Below are positions 46-36,820 of a DNA stretch of 43,061 nt, piece after piece; position 1 is the stretch's first letter, and each line of letters starts with the position of its first letter. The notes under the pieces are model-generated. The model was not told the DNA's origin and did no database searches. It was given only the letters and a program-made list of their open reading frames with translations. This stretch comes from an uncultured Alphaproteobacteria bacterium (GTDB taxonomy: Bacteria > Pseudomonadota > Alphaproteobacteria > RF32 > CAG-239). The DNA lies in NCBI GenBank assembly GCA_944391405.1, contig CALXTN010000012.1, positions 1 to 43,061 of the forward strand. The letters are read 5' to 3'. Both the position numbers and the translations under genes were made by a program.

Positions 46-1634
46 GTGAACCAATTTTGAATGTTAAGAGCTTAAATGTTCGATTTATTGGTGAAAATGG
101 AACTTTGTTTTCGGCTGTATATAATAGCTCTTTTTCGGTGGAAGAGGGCGAAATTTTGGCTATTGTTGGTGAGTCAGGATCTGGTAAGTCTGTTACAGCT
201 TTGTCTATCTTAGGGCTGATAAATCCTCGTAAAGTTTTGTATAAAAGTACCAATTCTATTTTGTTTGAAAATCGTGAGTTGACAGCTTTGTCTGAACAAG
301 AATGGCAAGATATTCGCGGTAATCGAATTAGTATGATTTTTCAGGAACCGATGAGCTCGCTTAATCCTCTTGTAAAAGTTGGACAACAGGTGGCGGAAAT
401 TATTAAAGTTCACAAACAAGTTTCAGATAAAAAGGCTTGGGCTAGGGCCCGATATCTACTGCGATTGGTCGGGATTGAAAACGCTGATGAACGCATGAAT
501 GCTTTTCCGTTTGAACTGTCTGGCGGACAACGACAACGCATTATGATTGCTATGGCGGTTGCTAATCATCCCAAAATACTTATCGCAGATGAGCCGACAA
601 CAGCTCTTGATGTTACTGTGCAAAAGCAAATTTTGGAACTTATTCTTAAGCTTAAACAAAAATTTGGTATGGCGGTTATTTTTATTTCTCATGACTTAAA
701 TCTGGTGCGTAAAATTGCCAATCGTGTTTTGGTGATGAAGCAGGGGGTTATTGTTGAACAAGGGAGTGTCGGAAATATTTTTAATGCGCCAATACATCCG
801 TATACAAAAAGTTTGTTGGCGGCTTTTAAACATTCTTCTTTTAGACAAGATTTTGTTTCCAGAAAATTGATGGAAGCGCGTGATTTGTCTGTGGAGTTTC
901 CAATTAAAAAGAATTTTTTCGGGAAAACTGTTAAAAGTATTAAAGCTTTGGATAGAGTGTCTTTGGCCCTTTATGAAGGGAAAACTTTGGCGGTTGTCGG
1001 TGAATCTGGTTCAGGGAAAACAACCTTGGGAATGTGCTTGGCTAATTTGATTAAATATGAGGGTATGATTTTAACTTCTAAATCCGTTCATATAAAAAAT
1101 GAACTTGATTTTCGGAAAAATATTCAGGTTGTTTTTCAAGATCCTTATAACTCTCTTAATCCTCGTATGACTATTGGTGAAATTGTGTCGGAAGGGATTA
1201 AGGTGCATTTTCCAAAATTGAAGAAAAAAGAAATTTTAGAAAAGGTTAAAAAAGTTTTGGTTGATGTGGGGCTGAAAGATGATGATATCTTAGATAAATA
1301 TCCGCACGAATTTTCTGGAGGACAACGACAACGTATTGCTATTGCCAGATCGTTAGTGATTGAACCGAAAATTATTATTTTAGATGAACCAACTTCTGCG
1401 CTTGATGTAACTGTTCAGGCAGAGATTTTGACTCTGCTTAGAAAAATTCAAGAAACTACAGGAATTGCGTATTTGTTTATTTCTCATGATATGCGTGCGG
1501 TTAAATCTATTGCGCATGATGTTTTGGTTATGAAATCCGGTAAAATTGTTGAGAGGGGGAGTGTGCGTGATGTATTTGAGAAACCTCAATCTCAGTATGT
1601 GCGTGATTTAATTGATGCTGTTTTTATAATTTAG
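42..1634 (+). CDS. yejF: Peptide ABC transporter ATP-binding protein with two fused nucleotide-binding domains (YejF/DppDF type)
   Basis: This 530-residue cytoplasmic protein should power uptake of short peptides through a YejB/YejE permease pair. It holds two complete ABC ATPase domains in tandem. Domain 1 has Walker A GESGSGKS at 43-50, Q-loop near 101, signature LSGGQ at 159-163 and Walker B ILIADEP near 179-185. Domain 2 has Walker A GESGSGKT at 320-327, signature FSGGQ at 424-428 and Walker B IIILDEP near 444-450. A fused DppD-DppF layout of about 530 residues is typical of YejF. The start is supported by AGAGGAAA upstream and by the overlap with the permease stop. It could also serve an oligopeptide or microcin-C-like substrate; the sequence does not settle which. 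Its 3' end overlaps the convergent gene by 11 bases. Confidence 0.9.
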   Translation: MSEPILNVKSLNVRFIGENGTLFSAVYNSSFSVEEGEILAIVGESGSGKSVTALSILGLINPRKVLYKSTNSILFENRELTALSEQEWQDIRGNRISMIFQEPMSSLNPLVKVGQQVAEIIKVHKQVSDKKAWARARYLLRLVGIENADERMNAFPFELSGGQRQRIMIAMAVANHPKILIADEPTTALDVTVQKQILELILKLKQKFGMAVIFISHDLNLVRKIANRVLVMKQGVIVEQGSVGNIFNAPIHPYTKSLLAAFKHSSFRQDFVSRKLMEARDLSVEFPIKKNFFGKTVKSIKALDRVSLALYEGKTLAVVGESGSGKTTLGMCLANLIKYEGMILTSKSVHIKNELDFRKNIQVVFQDPYNSLNPRMTIGEIVSEGIKVHFPKLKKKEILEKVKKVLVDVGLKDDDILDKYPHEFSGGQRQRIAIARSLVIEPKIIILDEPTSALDVTVQAEILTLLRKIQETTGIAYLFISHDMRAVKSIAHDVLVMKSGKIVERGSVRDVFEKPQSQYVRDLIDAVFII

Positions 1635-4104
1635 TATATGAATCTATTATATTTATGTCTTTTATACTGTCGTCTTGCCAATGAGCTGCGATATTGCGAA
1701 GGTACTTTAAATCATTAGGCGTTATGGTGGAACTCATTTGCGCGATATATTTGATTTGTTTAGATATATCAATATTTTCTGTAAATAATTTTACGAGTTC
1801 TGTAGGTGAAATTTTTAATATTTGTGAAACTTCATTTGGATGATTTGAGGGAAGTTCTTGTTCTAAAAAATTTAATGCTTTTTTGCGAATTGTTGCATCT
1901 TTTAAAGCTGATATGAAGATATCTTTAGGCGTATTTGTGTTTATATTGGGGTAGTCATGTTTTAGTTTTTTATACATTAGTGGATAAGAGGTTTGTATGT
2001 CTTTGCTTATTGTAAAAAGTTTTGTGAGTTGTTCTGCTTGGCTTAAATTGGTATAAATTAGTTGTGATTTAATTTTAAATTCAGGGGGTAATAAAGTTGA
2101 TTTTATGGATAAAATTATTTCAATAGTTGCCAGTAATTGCTCATCTATCGTGAAGCTGTTATTAATAATTATGCTATTGTTGTTGCGGTTATAGAGGGCT
2201 GCAATTGGTATTTGTTTTGAAGTTAAACCTCGTGTTTCTACAAAAATTATGTTCTTATGCTGAATATATGCAAATAGTTCATTAAATGATAATGATTGTT
2301 GAGCTATGTCTTGTAAATTAGATGTGTAGTGTATGTGGCGCAGAGGAAGATTTTGGTAGGTGTATGTTTTGGTTTTTATGCGCGCAGTACTGAAATGTTT
2401 ATTTCCTGGGATAATCTTGGCATCTCCTATTTTTAAACCGTGTTTATCCTTTTTGTTGGTTATTCGTTGTATTTGACGATTTATATATTCTATGCTGTTG
2501 TCGTTTAGGTTTTGTGTTTGATTGATTGTATTATTAAGATGTGTGTAGATATCATCTGTTAACGTTAGTATCTGTTGAGGAATTTTGTTTAGGTCTAAAT
2601 AAAAATATTCAAAGATCTTTAAATTATTTGTTTTTACTATATCTTCGGGGGGGATTGTATCTGTGATAGAATTTGTTTTATTCTGTTCTTTGTTTAGGAT
2701 ATTTAAGCATAATGTTCTTTTGTAATATTCTCCAAAGTCTTTATTCCAAGCTAGAGCAGCGGCATTTAATGCTTTTAATATGTCATTTGTGGTATTTAAG
2801 GTTAAACTATATGCGCGTTGCATATAAGGTGTTTTGCTTAATAATGTATGGTATATGTCTGGATATATTTCTTTTATGTCATGGCTAAAGGCGCATGTGC
2901 AGGCTAATGCATCACATTCTTTTAGACATTTTTGTAAAAGAATGTTGCTTACATTTGAGGTATTTTCAAAATTTTTATCTGAAGTTTGAAGAGCGTGTTT
3001 TGATTCATATATTATTCTGGCCATTAGCAAATTTGATTTGTAGGGGCTGTCTGATAGGTCTGGCAGTGTGATTGTGTTATTGATGTAGGTACTTTGCGTG
3101 TGCTGAATGTTATTTTGGGGTACAATAATATATTTGGTTTCTTTTATTAGGCTTTGGTGAATTATATAGCGACCTATTTCTGAATATTCACATATTGTGT
3201 TTAGTAATTGGATGAGATATTGTTTTTGCTCGGCTGTCCCAGTTATTTGATTATTTTGTATGGCTTTATTGACGACTTCATCGTGGTAGTCGGTTGTTAG
3301 AATTTGTTTATTATAATAGGTTATAAATTTCTCTCGTTTAAGAGCTAGTGTGGCTTGTGTTTGGTTAATGGTTTGACTTAAATGTTCATTTTCACTGCTT
3401 AAAAACTCTATTTCTTTATTAATACGTTCGTATTCTTTTTGTAGATTGTTTGTATCGTATTTTTCCATAATTTCTTTTTTTATTGTTTTTATGGAACGAG
3501 TTATATCAAAACGAGCTTCAAATTCTTTATATTCACTGTTTGTTTGGAGGAATTCATCGTAAAATTTTTGAATGTGTTGGCTGTATAAAATCCTTTTTAT
3601 TTTTTCTTTAAGATTTTGTTTTTGTGGGTTCATTCCTGGGGCATAATTTGTGTGTGGATCAGAATGGTGTGTTTGTGGTGGTGTTATTACTTCTTTGTAT
3701 TCTTCATGGCGATTTTCTAAAATAAATTTGTTTAGGAAGTTTTCGCCTTCTTTATAATAGCAACGAGGTAAATAGCTTAATAAATGTGTTCGAAAGGCAC
3801 ATACACGGTCTAGCCATGCAAATTCTTGTTTAATTTGAAATTGTTTATTGGAAATTGTGCCTTCTACAGATTTTAAGCGCTGTATGTCTTTTTCAAGTTT
3901 TTGAGTGTTTTCCGCTTGTTTTATGCGGAGTTGTGTGATTTTTTGAGGTTCTTCAATTTGTTTTAAAAATTCAGTTAAGGCCTGATTTTTATCAAAATGG
4001 TGTAAAGGTTTGAGATTTTTGCGAATATAGTCCAAATCTTCAAAGGTGATGGTATCAGATTTGGTGTATGGGGTATTGATGCTGTTGTTTTGCTCGTTAA
4101 TCAT
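1624..4104 (-). CDS. Large unknown protein with two degenerate metallopeptidase-like modules and a coiled coil
   Basis: I do not recognise this 826-residue protein. It has no signal peptide or membrane segment and is rich in N, I, T and K. Residues about 205-260 look like a coiled coil. Residues about 300-460 contain YESKH (366-370) and a later KECDALA (395-401). These line up with the HESIH and RKCDTFA motifs of the protein at 34695-35795, but the first metal-binding His is Tyr. Residues about 620-760 look like a second, more decayed copy (ending YPLMYKKLK, then a DIFISALKDA helix matching DILKALNAAA in the first copy). The C-terminal stretch IAQMSSTITPNDLKYLR also resembles the 34695 protein. 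No Shine-Dalgarno is visible before the ATG. I infer a catalytically dead member of the same family; its role is unknown. Confidence 0.75.
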   Translation of the reverse strand: MINEQNNSINTPYTKSDTITFEDLDYIRKNLKPLHHFDKNQALTEFLKQIEEPQKITQLRIKQAENTQKLEKDIQRLKSVEGTISNKQFQIKQEFAWLDRVCAFRTHLLSYLPRCYYKEGENFLNKFILENRHEEYKEVITPPQTHHSDPHTNYAPGMNPQKQNLKEKIKRILYSQHIQKFYDEFLQTNSEYKEFEARFDITRSIKTIKKEIMEKYDTNNLQKEYERINKEIEFLSSENEHLSQTINQTQATLALKREKFITYYNKQILTTDYHDEVVNKAIQNNQITGTAEQKQYLIQLLNTICEYSEIGRYIIHQSLIKETKYIIVPQNNIQHTQSTYINNTITLPDLSDSPYKSNLLMARIIYESKHALQTSDKNFENTSNVSNILLQKCLKECDALACTCAFSHDIKEIYPDIYHTLLSKTPYMQRAYSLTLNTTNDILKALNAAALAWNKDFGEYYKRTLCLNILNKEQNKTNSITDTIPPEDIVKTNNLKIFEYFYLDLNKIPQQILTLTDDIYTHLNNTINQTQNLNDNSIEYINRQIQRITNKKDKHGLKIGDAKIIPGNKHFSTARIKTKTYTYQNLPLRHIHYTSNLQDIAQQSLSFNELFAYIQHKNIIFVETRGLTSKQIPIAALYNRNNNSIIINNSFTIDEQLLATIEIILSIKSTLLPPEFKIKSQLIYTNLSQAEQLTKLFTISKDIQTSYPLMYKKLKHDYPNINTNTPKDIFISALKDATIRKKALNFLEQELPSNHPNEVSQILKISPTELVKLFTENIDISKQIKYIAQMSSTITPNDLKYLRNIAAHWQDDSIKDINIIDSYTKL

Positions 4105-5121: not shown

Positions 5122-5198
5122 GTCGGCGTAGCTCATCAGGATAGAGCAACAGTTTCCTAAACTGTGGGTAGTGGGTTCGAGTCCCGCCGCTGACACCA
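5122..5198 (+). tRNA. tRNA-Arg(CCT)
   Basis: A complete 77-base cloverleaf can be drawn. The acceptor GTCGGCG pairs with CGCTGAC (one G-T pair). The anticodon stem ACAGT/ACTGT encloses the loop TTCCTAA, giving anticodon CCT, which reads AGG arginine codons. The T arm is GTGGG-TTCGAGT-CCCGC. Discriminator A and CCA (5196-5198) are encoded. The gene stands alone between its own promoter and a hairpin terminator. Confidence 0.95.
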
Positions 5199-34195: not shown

Positions 34196-34261
34196 TTATT
34201 TTCATTTCCCTTTTATCTTTGCCCAATGTTGGGCTTATATCGCTTAAATTTTTACAATTAT

Positions 34262-34292
34262 ATTATATAGAGCGAACTCGTCTAAAACTCAA
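34262..34292 (-). promoter_or_regulatory. Predicted ftsH promoter
   Basis: On the minus strand TTGAGT (34292-34287) is followed after 17 bases by TATATAAT (34269-34262), which contains two overlapping -10 choices. It lies between the upstream RNA's terminator and ftsH, so ftsH need not depend on read-through. Confidence 0.6.
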
Positions 34293-34360
34293 TAGCTATT
34301 TTTATTTTAAGGAAAATTTGGGGGTAGATTGGCTTGTATTTCTAGATGAAATTTTTATAT

Positions 34361-34389
34361 AAAAAAATGCCCGCAGTTATAAGGCGGGC
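34361..34389 (-). terminator. Intrinsic terminator of the candidate RNA
   Basis: On the minus strand GCCCGC (34389-34384) pairs with GCGGGC (34374-34369) around a 9-base loop, followed by A and seven T residues (34367-34361). Confidence 0.85.
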
Positions 34390-34542
34390 GGATGTTCAGA
34401 AACCGTAAGCAATTGACGGCTCGACTTATTTGATGAATCTTATTCGTCGACATCCGTCCGAACGTGACTTTATCTTTTACCTTTTATGTCCATTGCTTAA
34501 GGGATTCTGATGCCCTGAACTTGATGTTTTATCAAATTCAGC
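34361..34542 (-). ncRNA. Candidate structured small RNA of unknown family
   Basis: A 180-base unit sits in an otherwise gene-free stretch (34196-34694), with a promoter on one side and an intrinsic terminator on the other. Reading the minus strand: an 11-bp hairpin with one G-T pair (34541-34531 with 34525-34515); an 8-bp long-range stem TAAGCAAT (34499-34492) with ATTGCTTA (34413-34406). Inside it, GACGG/CCGTC (34458-34454 with 34419-34415), TCGAC/GTCGA (34450-34446 with 34425-34421) and GAAT/ATTC close a stacked arm. The terminator stem GCCCGC/GCGGGC ends it. I tested it by eye against 4.5S SRP RNA, 6S RNA, tmRNA and RNase P RNA, and found none of their conserved sequences. No ORF of note lies within. 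Confidence 0.6.
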
Positions 34543-34546
34543 TGTG

Positions 34547-34575
34547 ACTATATATTAGGTTATATGTTTTTGCAA
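34547..34575 (-). promoter_or_regulatory. Predicted promoter of the candidate RNA
   Basis: On the minus strand TTGCAA (34575-34570) and TATAGT (34552-34547) have a 17-base spacer. The layout and -35 box are the same as in the tRNA-Arg promoter at 5082-5110. Confidence 0.65.
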
Positions 34576-34694
34576 TATTTTTTTTGTTTTTTATGTTCGA
34601 AAGTGTAAAAATCTAAATTTATGCTAATTTTTTTACTGGCGGAAAATTATTTAATGGGGGTGTTGTATTGAATGTGATATCAGTTTTATTTGTG

Positions 34695-35795
34695 TTATAG
34701 CTTCGTTGCTTTTTTATCTTGTTTTTTCATGAATATTTTTAAAGTGTTGTCGCTGTTTATGTATTCTCTTAAAGAACTGAAACAGCCTTGTTGCATACAA
34801 TGTTGTATAATTGAATTTTGGATTAAATCTGTATGACATAAGCAGGGTTTATTGATTAGTTTTGTAAATTCTTTCAGTTCTTTATGGGGGAATTCTGGTT
34901 CTTGCGTTAGTTCACAGGTCAGTCTTATTAAATCTTCATCGTTATTAGGGATTGTTTCCGGAAGTCTGGCGTATTGGGATAATTTTTGGTATGTGTTTGG
35001 CATAAGGTATGTCATTGTGCCATTTTTTATGCTGCGTTGATATTCGTTGCTCTGTTCTTCTTTCCCGTACATGTTTTTTAGCGTGTATCCTATTTTGGAA
35101 CGTTGCATGTTGTATATGTCATAGATGATTTGCGCATGTTGAGGATATTCTTTCATAACTTTCAAAAGTGCAAAAGTATCACATTTTCTTTCATCAGTTG
35201 TCCCCATTGTTATATGAATGCTTTCGTGGTAGAAACCTCGTTTATAAATGATATCTAATCGTTCTTCGAGGACAATACTCTTAAATTTTTCAATTTTTTC
35301 TTGTGCAAGTCCCTCTATGTTGCGGGGGGAAGCCGTGTCTTTTTTTATTTCTAAACATAGAATTTGCATATTTCCAATGTGTCTATCAAAAAAGCAGGTA
35401 TTGGATAGCGCATTCTGATATATTATTGAAGCATAAAATTGTTCTCGAGTGACGTTGTTAAACAGTATATCGTTTTTGTTCTTTTCATATGTCAAATCAA
35501 TGTTGTTTTGTTGTAAAAAATCAAATACAGTGCGGGCTTGAGCTTCTGTATTTGACATTGTAGGGTGGATTTGTTTGTAACGCTTGAATTTTTTTTCAAA
35601 TTCAAGGGCTGATGCTATTCCTATATTGGTGGATAAACCAATATCTGCATCTTTTTCCATAGTTCCCAGATTATAATTAGGATGTTCTTGATTTGTAGGG
35701 AGGGTTGGTTTTAGTGTCTTTATTATAATTGCCAACTGTTGTAGGTAATTCTTCTGTCCTTGTATAAAATTTTCGTATATGTTGTTGGTATTCAT
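34695..35795 (-). CDS. Putative soluble metallopeptidase (HExxH protein)
   Basis: The 366-residue protein has no signal peptide or membrane segment. HESIH at 190-194 is a zinc-protease HExxH motif. It is followed after seven residues by DERKCDTFALL (201-211), where Glu202 or Asp206 could be the third ligand; an E-x-x-x-D-x-x-A-type arrangement is seen in several HExxH families. The C-terminal part (KLSQYARLPETIPNNDEDLIRL) resembles the end of the 826-residue protein at 1624-4104, so the two belong to one family. The substrate is unknown. The closest style I can recall is uncharacterised putative metallopeptidase domains of gut Alphaproteobacteria. AGAGAA lies upstream of the ATG, and the gene is followed by the candidate RNA on the same strand. 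Confidence 0.7.
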   Translation of the reverse strand: MNTNNIYENFIQGQKNYLQQLAIIIKTLKPTLPTNQEHPNYNLGTMEKDADIGLSTNIGIASALEFEKKFKRYKQIHPTMSNTEAQARTVFDFLQQNNIDLTYEKNKNDILFNNVTREQFYASIIYQNALSNTCFFDRHIGNMQILCLEIKKDTASPRNIEGLAQEKIEKFKSIVLEERLDIIYKRGFYHESIHITMGTTDERKCDTFALLKVMKEYPQHAQIIYDIYNMQRSKIGYTLKNMYGKEEQSNEYQRSIKNGTMTYLMPNTYQKLSQYARLPETIPNNDEDLIRLTCELTQEPEFPHKELKEFTKLINKPCLCHTDLIQNSIIQHCMQQGCFSSLREYINSDNTLKIFMKKQDKKATKL

Positions 35796-35887: not shown

Positions 35888-36820
35888 TTAAGCATGACGA
35901 AGCTTGAATACGCCATCTTCGTATCCTTGGATGGTTTTATCGGTTTTTGCCATTTCTAATCTTTTTTCTGCAAGAGCTACATATTCTTTTTCACGCTCAA
36001 TGCCTACATAGTGACGTCCTAATTTGGCAGCGGTTACCGATGTTGTTCCGGAACCTAAAAATGGATCAAATACCACGTCTCCTTCATTACTGGAGGCTAA
36101 AATTAATTTGGCAATCAATTTTTCCGGCTTTTGAGTTGGGTGAGGGGTGTTCTCTGACATCGACCAAAACGGAATAGAAATATCGGTCCATAAATTTGAC
36201 GGGGCAGTTAAACGATATTTTTTGCCTTCTTCTTCATCGTCTTCTTGCCAATCTTTCGGAATCCCATTATCATCTTTGTATGGTGCTAATACGGGACGTT
36301 TTAGTTTAACTGCATCTAAATTAAAGGTATATTCGCTAGATTTTGTGAAAAACCAGATGTCTTCAATGCAGTTTTTCCAGTTATTGCCAGAACTACGACC
36401 TTTTTCTCGTTCCCAAGTAATTCTGTTTTTTAGTAAAAAGTATTTGCCGGCAATTTCCGGTATAGCTATGGATGTATTCCAATCTGAGCAGATGTATAAA
36501 CTACCATTGGGTTTTAATGATATAAAAACCTCAGCCAGCCATTTATCCATCCAACGCTTATAGTCGTTCCAGTCCATCGACTTAAATTCTTTGGTCCCAA
36601 ATTTTTTTGTTAAATTATATGGTGGATCAACTACTACTAAATCTGCAAAATTAGCTGGAAGAAATTTAAGCGCATCAAAGGTGTCTTGCCAAATGGTGCG
36701 GTTTAAAATTTCACTGACTTTTGCTTTTTTAGTCAGCGTTATTGCTCTTGATGAATATTCATCGGCTTCTTGGTCACTTAAGACAATGGTTTTGTTACGG
36801 GGAGCCGGAGTGTTGGTCAT
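35888..36820 (-). CDS. Beta-class DNA adenine-N6 methyltransferase
   Basis: The enzyme should methylate adenine in a specific DNA site using S-adenosylmethionine. The 310-residue protein has motif IV DPPY at 65-68 and motif I FDPFLGSGTT at 251-260, so catalytic precedes SAM motif: the beta-class order of CcrM, HinfI, RsrI and MboII enzymes. HPTQKP at 227-232 is also typical. It lacks the roughly 80-residue C-terminal domain of CcrM, so I do not call it CcrM. No restriction gene is adjacent. Its ATG overlaps the HPr stop codon by four bases, so it belongs to the PTS operon. The target site cannot be read from sequence. Confidence 0.9.
   Translation of the reverse strand: MTNTPAPRNKTIVLSDQEADEYSSRAITLTKKAKVSEILNRTIWQDTFDALKFLPANFADLVVVDPPYNLTKKFGTKEFKSMDWNDYKRWMDKWLAEVFISLKPNGSLYICSDWNTSIAIPEIAGKYFLLKNRITWEREKGRSSGNNWKNCIEDIWFFTKSSEYTFNLDAVKLKRPVLAPYKDDNGIPKDWQEDDEEEGKKYRLTAPSNLWTDISIPFWSMSENTPHPTQKPEKLIAKLILASSNEGDVVFDPFLGSGTTSVTAAKLGRHYVGIEREKEYVALAEKRLEMAKTDKTIQGYEDGVFKLRHA

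Follow-up and report, generated by a model that had tools for sequence, protein, structure and literature searches.

What does the largest gene-free region in a stretch of DNA from an uncultured Alphaproteobacteria bacterium (RF32; CAG-239), situated directly upstream of ftsH, encode? The window, by which we mean the whole stretch of 43,061 nt analysed (contig CALXTN010000012.1, assembly GCA_944391405.1), had been the subject of a preliminary description, which placed in this region a separate minus-strand gene for a structured RNA of no recognised family. The observation was confirmed, while the interpretation proved to be half right. The region (34196-34694) is indeed the longest gap between called ORFs, 499 bp against 214 bp for the next one, and the signals described in it were recovered (Table 1). 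The RNA promoter box, TTGCAA-17-TATAGT, is similar to the box TTGCAA-17-TATAAG upstream of tRNA-Arg at 5122, the RNA is richer in GC (0.41) than its flanks (0.27 and 0.24), and the unit ends in a GC-rich terminator made of a 6-bp GC stem, a 9-nt loop, an A and seven T residues. The terminator scan reported 0 sites, because its loop limit was 8 nt. Since the promoter scan of the 701-bp region gave 6 promoter-like sites against 3.1 +/- 1.8 in shuffles, the promoter box alone is weak evidence, and its conservation in nine genomes, described below, is the better evidence for an RNA promoter. As had been claimed, a promoter-like site of ftsH follows the terminator. It contains a T(A/G)TTG(A/T)GTTTT box, which we take to be perhaps a promoter of the heat-shock type; the box is common to 16 of 17 ftsH upstream regions and is present also where the RNA is missing. 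On the other side of the RNA lies a 366-aa ORF with no Pfam match (34695-35795, minus strand), and in the genomes G002, G003, G016 and G017 another ORF occupies this place, ending, as judged by eye, like the DNA methylase of window positions 35888-36820.

Table 1. Features of the minus-strand unit upstream of ftsH and of its surroundings, in window coordinates
Feature	Position	Strand	Observation
Promoter-like TTGCAA-17-TATAGT of the RNA	34547..34575	-	79-97% identity in the other eight ftsH-linked copies
Proposed full-length RNA, about 186 nt	34361..34546	-	z -4.44; ftsH-linked relatives 60-91% identical
H0, 5' hairpin, 34539-34531 with 34525-34517	34517..34539	-	6/9 pairs double-changed in 9 ftsH copies
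PA hairpin AGGG/CCCT, loop carries the P0b 5' strand	34500..34516	-	4/4 pairs double-changed in 51 copies
P0b pseudoknot, 34510-34505 with 34401-34396	34396..34510	-	4/7 pairs double-changed, 97% paired
P0a pseudoknot, 34498-34492 with 34413-34407 (P3 loop)	34407..34498	-	at least 6 pairs in 47/47 parsed copies
Core matching RF02221 positions 1-87	34378..34459	-	34.1 bits, cut-off 53
P1 closing helix, 34459-34451 with 34394-34386	34386..34459	-	core covariation
P2 hairpin, 34450-34446 with 34425-34421	34421..34450	-	core covariation
P3 hairpin, 34419-34417 with 34405-34403	34403..34419	-	core covariation
Terminator-like stem 34389-34369, T run to 34361	34361..34389	-	5' arm shares 4 nt with P1
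ftsH promoter-like site TTTAGA-18-TATAAT	34257..34286	-	related box before ftsH in 16/17 genomes
ftsH, 621 aa	32330..34195	-	

The minimum free energy (MFE) of the window RNA is -54.2 kcal/mol, compared with -36.8 +/- 3.9 for 200 shuffled sequences, none of which was as low (z -4.4). Both the 11-bp 5' hairpin (H0) and the 8-bp long-range stem of the preliminary description are present in the MFE structure, and the comparison with relatives makes the latter a part of the pseudoknot P0a. The likeness to the tRNA-Arg promoter would suit one of the known housekeeping RNAs (6S, 4.5S, tmRNA, RNase P). Such an identity is hardly credible: as the absence of their conserved features had already indicated, no Rfam match of these RNAs was obtained up to E 10 in 34200-34700, and the 6S RNA (RF00013) of this genome, above its cut-off, lies on another contig (C9:3799-3957).

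At the curated (gathering) thresholds of Rfam only tRNA matched in the window, and nothing in the RNA feature. With a permissive filter, the best of 4227 families for the window RNA was RF02221 (sRNA-Xcc1). The 3' 82 nt of the RNA aligned to all 87 positions of the model, end to end, with 34.1 bits, where the curated cut-off is 53 (E 3.1e-4 when 501 bp were searched, 2.5e-4 for one genome), and the consensus fold of the family, a closing helix round two hairpins, is formed. When the nine ftsH loci introduced below were searched together, RF02221 reached E 0.01 in 3/9, and the window copy was not among these. Among 57 relatives 32 were matched at E up to 0.1, none above the cut-off, while 0/14 control genomes were matched. 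When 20 chosen loci were scanned, 8 more distant copies of the same architecture exceeded the cut-off (59-76 bits); Pasteurella phage Pmp1 contributed one of these, and the other 7 came from genomes labelled as the same phylum. Since such intermediates link the window RNA to RF02221, yet the family's own cut-off is not passed, we would call it a diverged, sub-threshold relative of this family; the earlier statement that it belongs to no recognised family does not hold.

A BLAST search with the window RNA found two further copies of its 3' half in its own genome and many in relatives. A covariance model, R1, was built from 67 cores, the window copy being among the training sequences, and it matched at least 29/31 genomes of the window's family (E 0.001), at least 59/385 genomes of the class Alphaproteobacteria (E 0.01) and 38/398 genomes across the phylum (E 0.001). 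As 11 candidates were scored per genome in the class and phylum searches, copy numbers from these are lower bounds. From the relatives' set three weak rows (23-25 bits) were left out and two copies found by BLAST only were added, which gave 81 copies; 64 further copies from the class search and 26 from the phylum search were examined. In its own genome three copies besides that of the window were examined and a fifth R1 match was counted. DNA similarity against phages and plasmids consisted mostly of short weak matches, with two useful records. A 16-mer scan of viral contigs returned 9 stretches, with an R1 match in 0/9; the same scan of genome contigs returned 109 stretches, 80 of them listed, and R1 matched 33 of the 46 submitted, the other 34 listed being mostly from other phyla by title.

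In order to follow the fold through the family, 67/79 cores (A1) and 51/56 full copies (A2) were aligned. Homologues, for which the preliminary description had proposed a covariation check, display strong compensatory change in the core and in the pseudoknots. In the core, where P1 closes the hairpins P2 and P3, 18/21 pairs are double-changed in the 67 sequences, 91% of cells are paired against 31-42% in slid versions, and the covariation is 0.386 compared with 0.177 +/- 0.008 when shuffled. Upstream of the Rfam model stands the hairpin PA; P0b is formed between its loop and the strand after P3 (97% paired in 51 copies), and P0a between the P3 loop and a further upstream strand. The sequence of P0a varies between copies and its complementarity stays: leaving aside 4/51 copies unparsed for P0a, the mean is 8.9 bp against 4.1 for mismatched partners, a difference reached in 0/10000 permutations. 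The same holds in 26 distant copies from the phylum search, 21 outside the window's class and 5 within it, where the upstream strand fits its own core better than those of others (8.3 against 6.1, 0/10000), and in 40 copies fetched from the genome G774 (P0a 7.8 against 3.9, P0b 6.8 against 3.3, 0/10000 each). Duplex-energy tests agree in direction with these run-length tests, but they are noisier: upstream, the own partner was best or tied in 34/81, and in a second test in 8% of 26 and in 3% of 145 downstream, with the own mean reached in 4/5000 and 0/5000 permutations. The relatives share a double pseudoknot, which extends beyond the 5' end of the Rfam model by about 100 nt.

The surroundings of the relatives were compared next to those of the window copy. 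An ORF of at least 40 aa starts 8-75 nt behind the core in 144/171 copies, at 36-52 nt in 108 of these, a count that is weak by itself because 52% of random positions pass. The stricter count, an ATG with a Shine-Dalgarno sequence 8-75 nt downstream, was therefore the trusted measure; it gave 118/171 copies, compared with 1/171 when the opposite strand was read in the other direction and 134/3420 random positions. In relatives, the Shine-Dalgarno of the downstream gene has its complement in the closing helix or in the P3 loop. Where P1 ends in CATCC, GGATG stands in the Shine-Dalgarno region of 31/45 genes, against 4/721 other ORFs of the same loci; the cores of G774 read ACTTCC at the end of P1, and GGAAGT follows in 36/40. 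In the 26 distant copies the pre-gene region matches both the own P3 loop (6.0 against 4.9, 0/10000) and the own P1 end (6.5 against 5.2, 0/10000). Because of this spacing and of the complementarity between P1 and the Shine-Dalgarno, most copies of the family look like cis-acting 5' leaders, and the plain reading is a leader with one strand contested by the pseudoknot and the Shine-Dalgarno. If so, the Shine-Dalgarno would be free (on) when the pseudoknot is formed, and the freed strand would cover it (off) when the pseudoknot is lost. Since TATAAT, with up to one mismatch, was found directly before 22/51 leaders, where 26.5 are expected from shuffles, no promoter is claimed at this place.

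The genes behind these putative leaders are very mixed. The Pfam scan, which covered 121/144 partner proteins, gave outer-membrane beta-barrel (7), PEGA (6), HTH_3 (5), autotransporter (3), PilS (2), Mrr (2) and SymE (2) domains, and the genes behind the three other examined copies of the window's own genome encode an autotransporter, a PEGA lipoprotein and an outer-membrane protein. The genome G774 (1.6 Mb) holds at least 81 R1 matches; 38 of the 40 loci fetched from it (L407-L446) encode a pilin-like N-terminus, GRS(M/I)IE(M/I)LGVLAI, and the P0a strands differ before almost every pilin-like gene. This would make up a very large pilin-like gene family in which each member has its own RNA leader. 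In a 9.3-kb record deposited as 'Bacteriophage sp.' (MT836653.1), a leader of 84.5 bits at 649-733 precedes an adhesin-like ORF (771-3443), accompanied by two recombinase-like ORFs. In Pasteurella phage Pmp1 the above-cut-off RF02221 match (3985-4068 of the record) lies about 30 nt before the ORF annotated as the anti-repressor Ant. In phages, the c4-type antisense RNA is located just before an antirepressor gene and is complementary to a ribosome-binding site, which resembles this arrangement, although its fold differs from that of the family; with the c4 model nothing was matched in 34200-34700 up to E 10.

The window copy differs from these leaders. A copy before ftsH was found in 9 of the 15 congeners examined for this region, is absent from the remaining 6/15, and occurred in 0/2 more distant genomes. 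The nine ftsH-linked copies score 76-79 bits with R1, whose training set includes seven of them, the window copy being one. Behind none of the nine does an ORF begin at a distance of 8-75 nt; the distance to the ftsH start is 120-183 nt, 182 nt in the window, and no GGATG is present in the ftsH start region of the window. Hence the window copy shares with translational riboswitches neither the position nor the coupled Shine-Dalgarno, whereas its relatives resemble these in both, being structured 5' leaders with a closing strand complementary to the Shine-Dalgarno. Compared with the window copy, the other eight are 79-97% identical in the promoter and 60-91% in the RNA, but only 16-59% in the upstream flank, and the 6/15 congeners that lack the RNA keep the promoter-like box before ftsH. 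These results speak for a separate RNA gene and not an ftsH leader, as had been proposed.

They also bear on the possibility of a transcription attenuator of ftsH, in which P1 and the terminator would compete and a stabilised pseudoknot would permit read-through from the upstream promoter into ftsH. The RNA is on the ftsH strand and on the same side of the gene in all nine copies, P1 shares 4 nt with the terminator, and the family members elsewhere look like leaders. We nevertheless think attenuation unlikely, since a promoter-like ftsH box lies within the 120-183 nt that separate RNA and gene, most of P1 co-exists with the terminator in the core MFE structure, and the copies of G002, G017 and G011 have no separate terminator stem, P1 being followed by a T run only. 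A decaying relic, a leader that has lost its gene, would account for the absence of a coupled gene at the window copy and for its degenerate version of the leaders' GTC hairpin, and orphan leaders do occur elsewhere (27/171 copies are without a nearby ORF start, nine of these being the ftsH copies). Decay is, however, still harder to accept than attenuation when promoter and RNA are, in the eight other genomes, better conserved than the flank and the P0 pairs are intact and invariant, 13/13.

This invariance is part of the basis of the reading that we put forward. All 13 pairs of P0a and P0b are identical in the nine ftsH-linked copies, within which double changes occur only in H0 and in one PA pair; in contrast, where a similar lipoprotein gene of the congeners G000, G004 and G009 is preceded by leaders, these have three different P0a. 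Since the P0 strands do not vary, they would be held by something other than self-pairing, which suggests action in trans. The window RNA would then be a diverged double pseudoknot of the sRNA-Xcc1 type without a downstream gene, a free small RNA that is likely to be trans-acting, and we consider the chances of this explanation to be evenly balanced. Comparison of the sequences shows the fold with its pseudoknots, the existence of a multi-copy family and, for the relatives, both the close spacing to the gene and the Shine-Dalgarno complementarity; trans action of the ftsH-linked RNA we infer from strand invariance. Most plausibly, such an RNA would hold a cellular partner common to it and the leader copies, or would present to other RNAs its fixed strand, which runs from the P3 loop to P1. 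The ftsH-linked copy would have split from a gene with such a leader and then have been kept as a free RNA. All nine genomes with an ftsH-linked copy contain at least one further R1 match; because congeners without this copy also hold R1 matches, a decoy role would not be obligatory. The search for targets of the window RNA in its own genome gave nothing convincing: the match numbers were near or modestly above those of the backward-read control (61 against 42; 42 against 25), and of the 7 top-ranking non-self matches that were inspected, 5 fall inside ORFs and 1 is 47 nt upstream of a 92-aa ORF. Further points against a free RNA are the 4 nt common to P1 and the terminator, an arrangement known from attenuators, the three copies of nine with no terminator stem of their own, the scarcity of double changes within the nine, the lack of the RNA in 6/15 congeners and the weak RF02221 match, at E 0.01 in 3/9 ftsH loci.

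The 2011 paper on sRNA-Xcc1 reportedly describes it, in its title, as a trans-acting, integron-encoded sRNA. The sRNA-Xcc1 of Xanthomonas is about 100 nt by Northern and was mapped at 88 nt (PMC2996969), whereas the window RNA, proposed at about 186 nt, carries roughly 100 nt of extra upstream structure in front of the common core. According to other articles, the most widespread Xanthomonas integron cassette has sRNA-Xcc1 upstream of symE (PMC12444791), just as SymE is found among the partner proteins here (2/121 scanned); Xylella has seven copies, five of them close together (PMC12189769); and one Aeromonas salmonicida strain has 15 (PMC8780938). Two additional covarying pairs are listed for sRNA-Xcc1 in Rfam 15 (PMC11701678), and sRNA-Xcc1 is among the deleted genes listed in Haemophilus (PMC11932112); in PMC6557892, PMC8876359 and PMC4909258 the matches are confined to the reference lists. 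Our literature search, whose scope excluded subscription papers and preprints, found no paper recognisable as describing sRNA-Xcc1 in the role of a 5' leader or switch with a pseudoknot.

The RNA upstream of ftsH is thus a free-standing, ftsH-linked variant of a known RNA family, and the variant is new. In a wider and more tentative view, for which we see somewhat less than an even chance, sRNA-Xcc1 would be only the visible part of an extensive class of RNA gene switches in Pseudomonadota. Its members, up to 81 in a genome, would each carry a double pseudoknot competing with the Shine-Dalgarno of the next gene, with pairing strands that are specific to the locus like barcodes, and the ftsH RNA would be their freed, sequence-frozen, trans-acting counterpart. 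For the family the larger finding is the likely leader function. RF02221 is filed as an sRNA gene and looks misfiled: most of the copies examined look like cis-acting leaders with a conserved double pseudoknot, standing before adhesin, outer-membrane, pilin, SymE and antirepressor genes. This reading would change how RF02221 annotations, for example that of a virulence sRNA, should be read.
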